The notes under the pieces: generated by a model
What the model was told of the DNA's origin: nothing
Databases searched by the model: none
Seen by the model: only the letters and a program-made list of their open reading frames with translations
Program-made: the position numbers and the translations under genes
Shown here: positions 9,347 to 22,194 of the stretch, in pieces
Position numbering within the stretch: position 1 is the stretch's first letter
How the letters are laid out: every line of letters starts with the position of its first letter
Source of the DNA: Chthoniobacterales bacterium
GTDB taxonomy: Bacteria; Verrucomicrobiota; Verrucomicrobiia; Chthoniobacterales; JAATET01
Assembly: GCA_036569045.1 (NCBI GenBank)
Contig: DATCRI010000010.1
Span: forward strand, 1 to 46,006
DNA length: 46,006 nucleotides
Direction of reading: 5' to 3'

Positions 9347-10192
9347 ATGGAATTGCGACATCTTCGATATTTCATTGCGGTGGCGGATCGTCTGAGCTTC
9401 CGGCAGGCTGCGAAATTTCTGCGCATCGCCCAGCCGCCCCTCAGTGTTCAGATCCAAAAGCTGGAGCAGGAACTCGGGACGCCACTTTTCACTCGCGCCA
9501 ATCGACAGGTGCTGCTCACCCCCGCTGGGCACACGCTGTTAACGGAAGCCCGGGATATCGTCGAAAGAGCGGATCGAGCTGTATTAAAAATTCAGGACGA
9601 AGCCGCCGGGCGCGAAGGCAGCCTCAAACTGGCCTTCAAGAGTGGCGCCCTTTCGGAATCGATCACAAAAGGGCTCCGCAAATTCTTTCGCTCACACCGC
9701 GGCCTCCGGATTTCCCTCGTTCCGCAAGAGTCGGAAGATCATGGCGATGCCGATGCCCTCATCTCGGATTACCTTCCTTCCGAACTTCCTCCTCACGCAA
9801 TCCCGCTGCAGACGGCAATTCCGCAGTTGGCGGTTCCGCCGAAACATCGACTGGCCGATCGAGACGATTTTCTTCCGGCAGATCTGATTGGAGAGACCGT
9901 CTTCCGTCCGGTTCCTGGGAACCTGTCCGCGCCGGAGCGCTTCCTGATGCCATCGATCGAAGCCCTGGCTTCCGTCACACTCGTGACCGTCGCTGACTCG
10001 CTTCAACAACGGTTCTGGCGGGTTTCCCTGGGACTCGGCACCTGCCTGTGCGGTAGCGCGGATCGGGGGGCTTTGGACGCCAAACGCATCCCCCTCGGAG
10101 GCGACGCCCCCTCTCTGGTGATTGCGATCGTTCCCAATCCGAACTCGCAAGCGGGGTGCCTGCCATTGCTAGTCGAATCGATCCGGCAGTGA
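9347..10192 (+). CDS. LysR-family transcriptional regulator
   Basis: A 281-residue protein with a textbook LysR N-terminus: [18 protein letters not shown], then [20 protein letters not shown] and [12 protein letters not shown]. These form the winged helix-turn-helix (residues about 1-62), followed by the linker helix. The rest is the two-lobed effector-binding region; [20 protein letters not shown] (about 147-166) is the typical hinge segment. The inducer cannot be told. The ATG at 9347 is preferred to the TTG at 9332 because family members start at MELRHLRYF. LysR proteins usually act on a divergent neighbour; here that is the exported protein starting at 9240. The gene ends inside the 3' end of mnmG on the opposite strand (24-base overlap). 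Confidence 0.9.
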
Positions 10193-12058
10193 CGAAGCCG
10201 GCGAATGCCGTTCCAGCCAAACCCCGAGCAGGGAGAGGTCGGCTGGCGTCACGCCACTGATGCGGGAGGCCTGCCCAAGAGTTGCTGGACGCACCCGAGT
10301 CAGCTTCTCCGCCGCCTCCCGTCGGAGGCCATGAATGGCGGTGTAGTCAACCGATCCGGGAATGTGACGACTCTCCTGCCGACTCGATTTGGCCAGCTGT
10401 TCCTCCTGTCGCTTGATGTATCCCTCGTATTTGAGGTCGGTTTCGACCACCTCCCAGAGAGAATCTGGAAAATCCCCGCGGATTTCCGGAGGAAGAAGCT
10501 GATAACGGTTTTCGGGGCGCTTGAACCAAAGCGAAAGCCCCACCCCATCCTGCTTCAAGCTTTGAACTCTGGCGTGAAGATCGCCGTATGCCTGTTTTTT
10601 TCGTTCAAACTGGGCCTTTCGTTCACCGCCGACCAGGCCGTTCTCGATCGCCCGCCCTGTTAGCCGGAAATCCGCATTATCCTGGCGCAGAAGAAGCCGA
10701 TACTCCGCGCGGCTCGTGAACATCCGATAGGGTTCTGGCGTTCCCAGCGTCACCAGATCGTCGATCAAAACTCCAATGTAGGCCTCCGCCCGGGAAAGGA
10801 CGAACTCCGGGAGACCCCGAACTTTCAAAGCCGCATTGGCCCCTGCCATGAGACCCTGCGCCGCCGCCTCCTCGTATCCAGAAGTTCCATTGATCTGCCC
10901 CGCGAAATAAAGCCCTTCCACTCGCTTCGTTTCCAGAGTGCGATTCAGTTGCGTGGGAGGACAGTAGTCGTATTCGACGGCATAACCCGGCCGCAGCATT
11001 TCCGCGCGCTCGAGACCTCGAACACTGCGAATGAAATGATACTGCACATCGAAGGGAAGGCTGGTCGAAATCCCGTTTACGTAGATCTCTCCGGTGTGGC
11101 GGCCTTCCGGCTCCAAAAAGAGCTGATGACTCTCCTTCTCCGAGAATTTGACGACCTTGTCTTCGATCGACGGACAGTATCGAGGGCCGACACCCTCGAT
11201 CCGCCCGGCATAGAGCGGAGATTGATGGAGATTGTCCCTGATGATGTCGTGCGTCGTTGCGTTGGTATGAGTCACCCAGCACGGAATCTGTTCCACGTGG
11301 AACATCCCGTCGTTTGTTTCTTGATTCAGCGTGAAAAGTTCCTGCTCCACTCCTTGGAGACTTCCCTTAAGGAAACTAAAACGCGGTGGCGGGAAATCCC
11401 CCTCCTGGCGCTCGCAAACGGAGAAATCGATCGATGCGGCCAACAAACGACAGGGTGTGCCCGTCTTGAAGCGGCCGACTTCAAATCCGAGATCTCGAAG
11501 GCAATCGCTGAAGGTCGACATGGTGTCACCCATTCGCCCTCCCGACTGATTGCGAAGGCCCACATGAAGAAGCCCCCGCATGAAGGTTCCCGTCGTGACA
11601 ACGATGGCGCGGCCCCCAAAAGTGACTCCGAAGCTGGTTTCCACCCCGGTGACGCGATCTCTCTCCGTCGTCAGCCGAACCACGTTCGCCTGCTTGAGAT
11701 CGAGCCGAGGCGTCGCCTCCAACTGGGCCTTCAAGCGGAACTGATAGGCTTTCTTGTCGCACTGGGCCCGCGGCGCACGAACGCTGGGCCCCTTGGCAGC
11801 ATTCAGCATGCGAAACTGGATGCCGGTGGCGTCTGCGTTGAGGCCCATGACCCCACCGAGCGCGTCGATCTCCCGCACCATGTGCCCCTTGGCCAGTCCG
11901 CCGATCGCCGGATTGCAGGACATTTGTCCAACGGTGTCCGCGTTCTGGGTCAAAAGCAGCGTCTCACACCCCAAACGGGCTGCAGCGAGCGCCGCCTCGA
12001 TACCGGCATGACCCGCGCCAATGACGATGACATCGTAAGATTTCGGATAGACAAACAT
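10169..12058 (-). CDS. mnmG: tRNA uridine-5-carboxymethylaminomethyl(34) synthesis enzyme MnmG (GidA)
   Basis: A 629-residue flavoprotein that, with MnmE, modifies U34 of several tRNAs. FAD-binding signature [21 protein letters not shown] near the N-terminus, [22 protein letters not shown], then [11 protein letters not shown], and the later [12 protein letters not shown] and [21 protein letters not shown] are all family hallmarks. Length is as expected (about 620-630). The ATG at 12058 precedes [13 protein letters not shown]. An unusual inserted word, FHVEQ, is encoded exactly by a parS-like palindrome at 11289-11304, suggesting the DNA site shaped the protein there. mnmG lies near the replication origin in many bacteria, often beside rsmG and parA/parB; none of those is in this window. 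Its upstream neighbour on the same strand is cdd. Confidence 0.97.
11289..11304. promoter_or_regulatory. parS-like centromere site inside mnmG
   Basis: TGTTCCACGTGGAACA is a perfect 16-base palindrome. It equals the ParB-binding parS sequence known from pseudomonads and differs by only two symmetrical bases from the Bacillus/Caulobacter form. It lies within the mnmG coding sequence, where one strand encodes FHVEQ. ParB would load here and spread to organise the origin region for segregation. parA and parB themselves must be elsewhere in the genome. Confidence 0.75.
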
Positions 12059-12122
12059 GGCGTATGCAGCTGGCAAAGCTACCACACAGCCCGCCTCGAG
12101 AAAGGAAATCCCTCAGCGTTGA

Positions 12123-12138
12123 AGTTCCACGTGGAACA
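12123..12138. promoter_or_regulatory. Second parS-like site between cdd and mnmG
   Basis: AGTTCCACGTGGAACA matches the 16-base parS palindrome at 15 positions, with only the first base changed. It lies in the 87-base gap between the end of cdd (12146) and the start of mnmG (12058), 834 bases from the first site. Two such sites close together fit the clustered parS pattern of origin-proximal DNA. ParB bound here could also affect mnmG transcription. Confidence 0.7.
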
Positions 12139-12145
12139 ATAGTGG

Positions 12146-12553
12146 TCAACGCCGGTCGAGGATCCCGGTGGCCGCCCGCGGGAGAAGGTCTCCAAGCGAA
12201 TAAACGACCCGATTGCCAGAGATCGTGCAAAGCACCATCTCGAGCTGAGGGTTGAACTCCGCCAGCACTTGCCGGCAAGCGCCACACGGGCTGATCGGCT
12301 CCACGGTGTCTGCAACGATCACAATGGTTCGAAAATCCCGGCATCCCGCGGCAACGGCCTGCCCGATCGCCACCCGTTCTGCACACATCGTGAGACCGAA
12401 ACTAAGGTTCTCGACGTTACATCCTTGAAAAACCCTCCCGTCTGTTGCCACCAGAGCCGCGCCAACGGCAAATTGGGAATAGGGCGCGTAGGCTTTCGAT
12501 CGAGCCGCTGTCGCTTCCGCTACCCACCTTTCCATATCCACAGCGTCCAACAT
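12146..12553 (-). CDS. cdd: Cytidine deaminase
   Basis: A 135-residue enzyme of pyrimidine salvage that deaminates cytidine and deoxycytidine to the uridine forms. Substrate-binding NVE (46-48), the zinc ligand Cys57 and catalytic Glu59 in MCAERVAI, and the zinc ligands Cys90 and Cys93 in PCGACRQVLAEF are all present. This is the short, tetrameric type of cytidine deaminase. The ATG at 12553 has GAGGGG about 8 bases upstream; the ATG at 12535 is a possible alternative. The gene lies directly upstream of mnmG on the same strand, and the gap between them carries a parS-like site. Confidence 0.94.
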   Translation of the reverse strand: MLDAVDMERWVAEATAARSKAYAPYSQFAVGAALVATDGRVFQGCNVENLSFGLTMCAERVAIGQAVAAGCRDFRTIVIVADTVEPISPCGACRQVLAEFNPQLEMVLCTISGNRVVYSLGDLLPRAATGILDRR

Positions 12554-12683
12554 TCGCCGAACCCCTCTTCGACAACAAGCGAGGAATCGCATTGGACATT
12601 TCATGTCTCATACATCTCTGACTTCGGACCGCCTCTGGCAATCCCAACGCGGCCCTTGCCAGTCTGAAAAGGCCTGACTACTT

Positions 12684-13004
12684 ATGGAGGTGATGGAATC
12701 CCCTTCTCCGGAAGCCTCTCCCGCAAAATCGGTGGTCGAGGAACTCGACGTCCTGCGCAGCGAATTTCGCTCTGCCCTGCTTGCCTACGCCGGCCGCATC
12801 GAGGAAGAGATTGGCCTGGTGCGGAAAACCGTCGCTGCAGAAGGAGCCGGCAAAAAGGTCTCGGCCGCGAAGCTTCGCGACCTCCGCGACATGCTTACGT
12901 TGCTGCGCAAATTCTCCATCAAGCCCGAAAAAGGCCGCCGCAAGGATTTCAAAAAAATCGATGCGCTCGTCGGAGACCTGGCGATGTTGATCGAAAATTG
13001 GTGA
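12684..13004 (+). CDS. Small helical protein of unknown function
   Basis: A 106-residue, highly charged protein that should be almost wholly alpha-helical. Residues 20-50 hold a coiled-coil-like stretch, VEELDVLRSEFRSALLAYAG. Residues 55-90 are Lys/Arg-rich, with KPEKGRRKDFKKID. There is no signal peptide or membrane segment. I do not recognise the family. Two ATGs (12684 and 12693) flank a GGAGG word, which overlaps the first and is too close to the second; 12684 is used here. It is divergent from cdd and 37 bases ahead of msrA on the same strand, so the two may share a promoter. Confidence 0.65.
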   Translation: MEVMESPSPEASPAKSVVEELDVLRSEFRSALLAYAGRIEEEIGLVRKTVAAEGAGKKVSAAKLRDLRDMLTLLRKFSIKPEKGRRKDFKKIDALVGDLAMLIENW

Positions 13005-13041
13005 GGCGGGAATAAGGCGCCTCGCGCCGCCTCTCTCCTTC

Positions 13042-20372: not shown

Positions 20373-21170
20373 GTGAAACTCCCCGCCACCGCGACGCTCG
20401 CGACGCTTTTTCTCGATCGCCCGCACGCGCCTTCGCCCCTGTGGGCGCGAGTGACGATTTTCTCGATCGTTGCTCTGATCTTTGCAGCCATTTGCTCGGC
20501 GGCACTCGCCGCCTCCACCTCGAACTGGCGCGCGGTCTGGGATTATCGCGAAGTCTTCTGGCAGGGCTGGCTTCTCACGATTCGCATTTCCCTCGCCGCC
20601 CTCATTTTCAGCACGTCGGCCGGCCTCATCCTCGCCCTTTCCCGGCGCTCTCCCTTCATCCCCCTTCGGGCCGTTGCCCAGCTCGTCATCGAGATCGTCC
20701 GGGGAACCCCGCTCCTCGTCCAGATCCTCGCCCTCTGGTTCATCGCCGCCAGCCAGCTCCACTTCGAGAATCGTCTCTGGGCCGGCATCCTCATCCTCTC
20801 CCTTTTCAGCTCCGCCTACCTTGCCGAGATCATTCGCTCCGGCATCGAGAGCGTCGGCGCCTCCCAGCTCGAGTCCGCCAGGGCCATCGGTCTCTCGACT
20901 CTGCAGACCTACCGGTTCATCATCTTTCCGCAGGCCATTCGCCAGATTCTCCCCGCTCTTGCCGGCCAGTTCGCCTCGCTCATCAAGGATTCCTCGCTGC
21001 TTTCGATCATCGGCCTCCAGGAATTCACCTTCGCCTCCCAGCAGGTGAACTCCGCGACCTACAGCACCCTCGAGAGCTACTTTCCCCTCGCGATCGGGTA
21101 TCTCCTGCTCACCCTTCCGATCTCCGCCTTCTCCCGGCTCCTGGAACGCCGCTTCCACTATGAAAGTTGA
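20373..21170 (+). CDS. Amino-acid ABC transporter, permease subunit
   Basis: A 265-residue membrane protein of the polar-amino-acid permease type. An early hydrophobic segment (about 28-48) precedes the domain that starts at WQGWLLTIRISLAALIFSTS. The family loop EIVRGTPLLVQ and the EAA-like motif region SQLESARAIGLSTLQTYRFI (coupling to the ATPase) are clear. The GTG at 20373 is chosen because AGAAGG lies about 10 bases upstream; a TTG nine bases earlier would be too close. The last 11 bases overlap the ATPase gene. No periplasmic solute-binding gene is next to it, so substrate is uncertain and the binding protein must be encoded elsewhere. Confidence 0.9.
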   Translation: MKLPATATLATLFLDRPHAPSPLWARVTIFSIVALIFAAICSAALAASTSNWRAVWDYREVFWQGWLLTIRISLAALIFSTSAGLILALSRRSPFIPLRAVAQLVIEIVRGTPLLVQILALWFIAASQLHFENRLWAGILILSLFSSAYLAEIIRSGIESVGASQLESARAIGLSTLQTYRFIIFPQAIRQILPALAGQFASLIKDSSLLSIIGLQEFTFASQQVNSATYSTLESYFPLAIGYLLLTLPISAFSRLLERRFHYES

Positions 21171-21891
21171 GCTGCGCAACGTCTCGAAACGGTTCGGCGG
21201 TCAGGTTGTCCTTCGCGACATTTCGCGGACGCTCGAGTTCCCGCATTCGCTCGTCCTTATCGGTCCCTCGGGCGGAGGAAAATCCACGCTTCTCCGCCTG
21301 CTGGCTGGATTGATCGTTCCCGACGAAGGCGAGATTTTCGTCGACGGAAAGCAGATTCCCCGTCGCAACGCGGCCCTTCGCACTTATCGCGCGGAACTCG
21401 GCATCGTCTTTCAGGCCTACAATCTCTTTCCGCACCTTTCCGCCCTGGAAAACATCTGCCTCCCGCTCGTTCAGGTCCATCGACTTCCCGCCCAAGAGGC
21501 CCATGCGCGCGCCAGGGAGGTCCTTGCACGCTTCCAGCTCGCGGACCACATCCACAAGCGCCCGGCGGAGCTTTCCGGTGGTCAGCGCCAGCGCGTCGCC
21601 ATTGCCAGGGCAGTGGCCATTCGCCCGAAGCTCCTCCTTTTCGACGAGCCGACCTCGGCCTTGGATCCCGAAATGACCGCCGAGGTTCTCGACCTGCTCG
21701 CCGAGCTCCGATCCGAGGGTTCCCCTCTCGTCCTGGTGACCCACGCCATGGGGTTTGCCCGCCATACGGCAGACCTGGTCGCTTTCGTCTCGGGCGGGAC
21801 CCTTCTCGAGGTGGGTCCTCCCACGCATCTCTTCGATGCGCCGGAACGTCCGGAAGTCCGGCGCTTTCTGGAAAGAGTGCTTCGTTACTGA
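21160..21891 (+). CDS. Amino-acid ABC transporter, ATP-binding subunit
   Basis: A 243-residue ATPase of the GlnQ/HisP type. Walker A is GPSGGGKSTLLRLLAG, the Q-loop lies in VFQAYNLFPHL, the signature is [14 protein letters not shown], Walker B is LLFDEPTSALDPEMT and the switch His is in LVTHAMGFA. It powers the permease encoded just upstream, whose 3' end it overlaps by 11 bases. Position behind the pdh genes suggests import of amino acids that feed pyruvate or acetyl-CoA, but this is only a guess. Confidence 0.94.
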   Translation: MKVELRNVSKRFGGQVVLRDISRTLEFPHSLVLIGPSGGGKSTLLRLLAGLIVPDEGEIFVDGKQIPRRNAALRTYRAELGIVFQAYNLFPHLSALENICLPLVQVHRLPAQEAHARAREVLARFQLADHIHKRPAELSGGQRQRVAIARAVAIRPKLLLFDEPTSALDPEMTAEVLDLLAELRSEGSPLVLVTHAMGFARHTADLVAFVSGGTLLEVGPPTHLFDAPERPEVRRFLERVLRY

Positions 21892-22194
21892 AGAATCAGG
21901 AATTGCGTCGAAATGAGCACCCGGCATTCACTTGTTCACATCCTGAATAAGATGTGTCTTTGGGTGACCCATAACTTCTTATTCTTAATGCTGCGAATAA
22001 CTCCCCGGAATCGTGTTCCTCTGTGGATTTAAGCCTGTTCCACGCCGATTGGACCTTGTGAATGACTTTGCCGCCGTTGCGATCGGTTCCCGACAACTCG
22101 CGGAAAATCTGGAAAAGACCACAAGCGCCCGCAACCATTCACCACTTATTCACAAACTGCTCACGACTCCGACGCTTGCAAAAATCGCCCCGGT
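21892..22194. other. Gene-free AT-rich region with DnaA-box-like words: candidate replication origin
   Basis: This 303-base gap has no plausible gene. Positions 21941-22000 are only about 37% G+C, far below the surroundings. DnaA-box-like 9-mers (consensus TTATNCACA): TTATTCACA at 22146-22154 (exact); TTGTTCACA at 21932-21940 (one mismatch); on the minus strand TTATTCGCA at 21992-22000 and TCATTCACA at 22057-22065 (one mismatch each) and AAATCCACA at 22022-22030 (two). TTATTC recurs at 21979 and, reversed, at 21942-21950. A parS half-site, TGTTCCACG, is at 22036-22044. Box clustering, an unwinding-prone stretch and parS-like sites 10 kb away suggest oriC. dnaA, dnaN and rsmG are not in the window, so this remains a hypothesis. 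Confidence 0.4.

Follow-up and report, generated by a model that had tools for sequence, protein, structure and literature searches.

A 303-bp gap between genes, at positions 21892-22194 of a 46,006-nucleotide stretch from a Chthoniobacterales bacterium (contig DATCRI010000010.1; hereafter the window), is very probably the chromosomal replication origin (oriC). This reading rests on the anatomy of an ordered array of DnaA boxes within the gap, the conservation of that array across the order, a switch in strand composition at the same place, and the proximity of parS sites and the mnmG gene. A first-pass annotation of the window had put the gap forward as a candidate chromosomal origin, and this interpretation is supported by the skew, the conservation, parS, mnmG and the joint absence of the array and dnaA from two small genomes.

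An ordered DnaA-box array conserved across the order

Words with no more than one mismatch to the DnaA box TTATTCACA occur at five positions in the entire window (3418, 21932, 21992, 22057 and 22146), and four of these are inside the gap, namely the exact box at 22146 and the three one-mismatch boxes that the first-pass annotation had also reported. Such a cluster of boxes exceeds chance, as is expected of a chromosomal oriC: when the gap was simulated 5000 times with a first-order Markov model, no run yielded four or more such words (mean 0.06), and one in 1000 permuted 9-mers reached four in the gap. The gap is, as had been remarked, AT-rich in a GC-rich window (49.5% versus 63.0% GC), a composition in which DnaA-like words could accumulate fortuitously; however, a chance cluster is rendered vanishingly improbable by these simulations and is already refuted by the order-wide conservation described below.

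Alignment of the congeners reveals the order of the elements: an inverted pair of boxes is followed by GTTCC[A/T]C, then by GTTCCACG, and finally by box 3 and box 4 (Table 1). The boxes are accompanied by an AT-rich, easily melted segment of the kind expected at an oriC, with just three other separate 60-bp stretches of the window being less stable than the spacer between the inverted pair, as judged from computed stability only. The distance from box 1 to a conserved GNGAA motif is 51-54 bp in 27 of 27 modules, where the search pattern would have allowed 46-60 bp. Box 1 is present in all the aligned modules, but its word, TTGTTCACA, was itself part of that pattern; the second GTTCC element is nearly invariant among the modules although absent from the pattern. 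The parS half-site previously noticed in the gap, TGTTCCACG at 22036-22044, covers this second element.

A gapped pattern (TTGTTCACA, 46 to 60 bp, GNGAA, 8 to 30 bp, GTTCC) was matched in 32 of the 197 genomes of the order, with some of the matches judged from their sequence to be due to chance; the reversed control gave few matches. Trained on 27 copies of the array, a sequence-only model detects it, at an E-value cut-off of 0.01, in 135 of the 197 genomes and 36 of the 45 genera, usually at one place in each; paired rows for a locus in the model's listing reflect the symmetry of the array, with one row per orientation. Many weaker matches, especially in family f9, extend no further than the two inverted boxes and the spacer between them. 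Conservation in relatives at about one place per chromosome is likewise what an oriC would display, with the genome of the Chthoniobacteraceae metagenome-assembled genome (MAG) RYN_612 (G091, contig C39) having tandem copies at one place: four array matches, not one, are found there within 1.4 kb.

Elsewhere in the phylum the array is all but missing: a phylum-wide set of 194 genomes gave model matches in 6, two of which are from Chthoniobacterales. One clear match beyond the order (L187, G369:C3:308338-308476; E = 3.6e-11) comes from a different family within the class and may hint at an ancestral origin of wider distribution. An exact-pattern scan of 84,980 species returned 31 stretches, mostly from MAGs named Spartobacteria, Chthoniobacter, Chthoniobacterales or Terrimicrobiaceae, their membership of the order being taken from these names.

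The genes flanking the array change between genera while the boxes are kept, which is the outcome that the conservation check proposed in the first-pass annotation had sought. The array is flanked by genes for an ABC ATPase and a probably secreted protein in the window's genus, and by deoxyhypusine synthase together with NAD synthase or that secreted protein in another genus. In Chthoniobacteraceae-type genomes its neighbor is RNase III, accompanied by UvrC, a sugar kinase or a secretion ATPase. We also considered the right-hand gene as part of the conserved unit and rejected it, because its homologue in the relative G041 is not beside the array. The alternative that the gap is a regulatory region and no origin, i.e. 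a DnaA-controlled promoter or a terminator between genes, could draw on the DnaA boxes that are also seen upstream of dnaA, along with GTTCC elements in the window's genus. However, the gap is bounded by the 3' ends of convergent genes, so that no gene starts on either side of it, and the array stays where the flanking genes change; we hence regard a purely regulatory role as exceedingly unlikely.

Strand composition, parS sites and dnaA

The cumulative GC skew of the window reaches its minimum at 22.0 kb, i.e. at the gap. Read on the plus strand, the third-codon skew is below zero in each of the 12 genes tested left of the gap, irrespective of their strand (weakly so in mnmG, on the minus strand, and in a LysR-type gene), and above zero in the three genes to its right, of which two are on the minus strand and one on the plus strand. 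As the third-codon skew is independent of gene strand, the switch is not a consequence of gene strand. The first-pass annotation had correctly seen no clean switch of gene orientation at the gap and had counted this against an origin; strand composition, on the other hand, does switch cleanly there. The skew minimum also falls at the array in the congeners G001, G002 and G003. In G041, which offers a 3.76-Mb contig, the skew is negative in the first 58 kb, positive in most samples from 0.2 to 2.7 Mb, and negative in most from 2.8 Mb to the end (past 160 kb, these are 20-kb samples taken every 100-200 kb and not a full curve); over its first 160 kb, the cumulative curve bottoms out at 72 kb, about 3 kb short of the array, which is at 74.9 kb. 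The skew check proposed earlier thus places the leading-strand switch at the gap in the window, at the array in three congeners and near it in G041, with the offsets in G009 and G083 considered below.

The two parS sites of the window, one within mnmG (gidA) and the other just upstream of it, are 10-11 kb from the gap, in agreement with the first estimate of about 10 kb, and are the only good sites of the genome, the next best carrying two mismatches. The mnmG gene, which was unrecognized in the first-pass annotation, is a classic origin gene often found near oriC. A parS site close by, as at an oriC, recurs in the relatives: in 20 of the 20 genomes with array and parS seen together on a contig, 0.1-25 kb separate the two, as read by eye from listings that do not take in every genome. 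G041 carries two degenerate parS sites, one about 0.1 kb and the other about 1.5 kb from its array. At locus L162, mnmG and the array are about 3 kb apart.

The dnaA gene, followed in our reading by a dnaN-like frame, is on a different contig (C57), and the gap is thus adjacent to neither dnaA nor dnaN; mnmG, at about 10 kb, is not directly adjacent to it either. An origin beside dnaA on C57, an arrangement seen in many bacteria, would accord with the DnaA box upstream of dnaA in this genome and most relatives, and with a local change in the skew 2-3 kb beyond dnaA. We reject this candidate as very unlikely: there are just one or two boxes, as expected for autoregulation; no parS within two mismatches is found on C57; and in G041, where dnaA (3.58 Mb) and the array (75 kb) share a contig, the skew samples nearest dnaA are negative and inside the left arm. 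The two are also on one contig, 78 kb apart, in G040. In the region upstream of dnaA itself (L001, 850-920), the oriC words TGTGAATAAC, GTTCCTC and GTTCCAC recur; TGTGAATAAC followed by two GTTCC words is seen upstream of dnaA in the window's genus, to which the GTTCC pair is common.

In two genomes of 0.9 Mb, each in a single contig (G010 and G019), the array and a DnaA match over the cut-off are both missing; G026, assigned to their genus, possesses both. From their small size we infer that the two are endosymbionts (Xiphinematobacter), and they may initiate replication without DnaA. Of the other genomes with no array match at E 0.01, the six tested for dnaA (G006, G011, G028, G029, G049 and G050) all have it, and have the array only as weak matches; therefore, the lack of a model match does not imply the lack of dnaA. 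The weak array matches of G006 and G051 are on the contig with parS.

Several observations weigh against the gap being the origin. To its right, a gene at 27 kb again has a negative third-codon skew and the GC skew is negative again at 33-40 kb. The genome is in 91 contigs, and therefore its whole-chromosome skew cannot be drawn. The skew of G005 and G077 is too weak to place a minimum, and the minima of G009 and G083 are about 11 and 38 kb off the array. In ten further genomes the array and parS are on separate contigs of fragmented assemblies, leaving their distance unavailable, and the best ParB_N matches are on contigs other than that of the window. Lastly, the basal unwinding system (BUS) consists of DnaA boxes plus DnaA-trios (PMC6669920, PMC8287927), and a run of at least three trios, as defined in PMC8287927, within the 16 bp 3' of a box is found at none of the gap's four boxes.

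The offsets in G009 and G083, together with the resolution of the skew to a few kb only, would also be compatible with the array being a DnaA-titrating or -reactivating site, comparable to datA and DARS of E. coli or the DnaA box clusters of B. subtilis, with the true oriC within tens of kb. We consider this improbable on the following grounds: there is no second box cluster in the 46 kb; the array tracks parS and the skew in many genomes; its AT tract is of nearly fixed length; and both genomes without dnaA are also without the array. The gap as oriC remains by far the best interpretation.

Setting of the gap and coordinates of its features

Both genes that converge on the gap are listed in Table 1 with the elements of the array. 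The small protein encoded to the right is probably secreted, judging from its N-terminus. Scans of the window against Rfam and for tRNAs gave no matches. The gap is not the most AT-rich 300 bp of the window, with the segment at 2351-2700 having a slightly lower GC content; two frames near that segment were tested and have no Pfam family.

Table 1. Coordinates of the proposed origin, its elements and associated features (window positions, except in the last row)
Feature	Position	Strand	Remarks
Proposed oriC, AT-rich intergenic region	21892..22194	.	Box density and skew minimum there
DnaA box 1, TTGTTCACA	21932..21940	+	One mismatch to TTATTCACA; left arm of inverted pair
AT-rich spacer, candidate duplex-unwinding region	21941..21991	.	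37% GC; computed stability
CTT-rich tract, CTTCTTATTCTTAA	21975..21988	+	Adjoins box 2
DnaA box 2, TGCGAATAA	21992..22000	-	Inverted relative to box 1
GTTCC element 1, GTTCCTC	22015..22021	+	GTTCC part of search pattern
GTTCC element 2, GTTCCACG	22037..22044	+	parS half-site word; 22 bp after element 1
DnaA box 3, TGTGAATGA	22057..22065	-	
DnaA box 4, TTATTCACA	22146..22154	+	Exact
parS, TGTTCCACGTGGAACA	11289..11304	.	Exact; inside mnmG
parS	12123..12138	.	One mismatch; just upstream of mnmG
mnmG (gidA)	10172..12085	-	PF01134, E 6.6e-160
Left flank, ABC transporter ATPase gene	21160-21891	+	Adjoins array only within the window's genus
Right flank, small protein gene without Pfam family	22195-about 22713	-	Its stop borders the gap
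Tandem arrays of RYN_612 (L060)	locus about 11608-13028; contig 111608-113028		

Proposed mechanism and comparison with known origins

DnaA binding, melting, initiation and segregation at the gap are predictions. We propose that DnaA, encoded on another contig, would bind the inverted boxes 1 and 2, as well as boxes 3 and 4. As the inverted boxes are about five helical turns apart, both would face the same side of the helix, and melting would take place in the AT-rich tract with CTT repeats that separates them. The helicase would be loaded at the melted tract, with forks leaving bidirectionally, and segregation of the origin region would proceed through the pair of parS sites within and next to mnmG.

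An additional origin-binding protein is suggested by the conservation of the GTTCC pair: the elements are probably sites of such a second protein, or else non-canonical contacts of DnaA or ParB. More tentatively, and with the balance of probability tilted against it, one may envisage an unwinding layout specific to the Chthoniobacterales (a symmetric pair of inverted boxes five turns apart, a CTT tract and no box-proximal trios), coupled with a second sequence-specific factor that reads the GTTCC pairs both at the origin and, for some genera, in front of dnaA, linking initiation to dnaA expression. This factor is possibly ParB, given that GTTCCACG is a parS half-site.

With the gap as a probable oriC, the Chthoniobacterales, an order of soils and fresh waters represented here mainly by draft assemblies, gain a testable origin. 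No description of an oriC from this order or from the Verrucomicrobiota was found in the literature searched, the scope of which did not extend to most subscription journals or DoriC. A 140-bp signature that locates the origin in draft genomes would allow coverage-based estimates of growth rate and the construction of plasmids for genetics, and would make it possible to test how origin opening by DnaA proceeds where canonical DnaA-trios are absent.

In comparison with the BUS, the boxes of the gap similarly adjoin an AT-rich tract with triplet periodicity, in the form of CTT repeats, but have no canonical trio run beside them. Strict trios are rare among the 27 modules (1/27 and 0/27 for the two boxes). 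Loose trios are seen at box 2 in 8 modules versus a shuffled expectation of 7.9, and at box 1 in 16 versus 11.5, a modest excess. The longest YTW runs in the spacer are above those of shuffled sequences (2.5 versus 1.6), with the clearest of them at the end of the spacer that is far from the box on that strand.

With bacterial origins of the E. coli and B. subtilis type, the gap shares its AT-rich intergenic character, clustered DnaA boxes, the skew minimum, and the nearby parS and mnmG. It differs from them in directly adjoining neither dnaA nor mnmG, origins away from dnaA being known in other phyla, and in its unusual architecture, with an inverted box pair around the AT tract and a conserved GTTCC pair.
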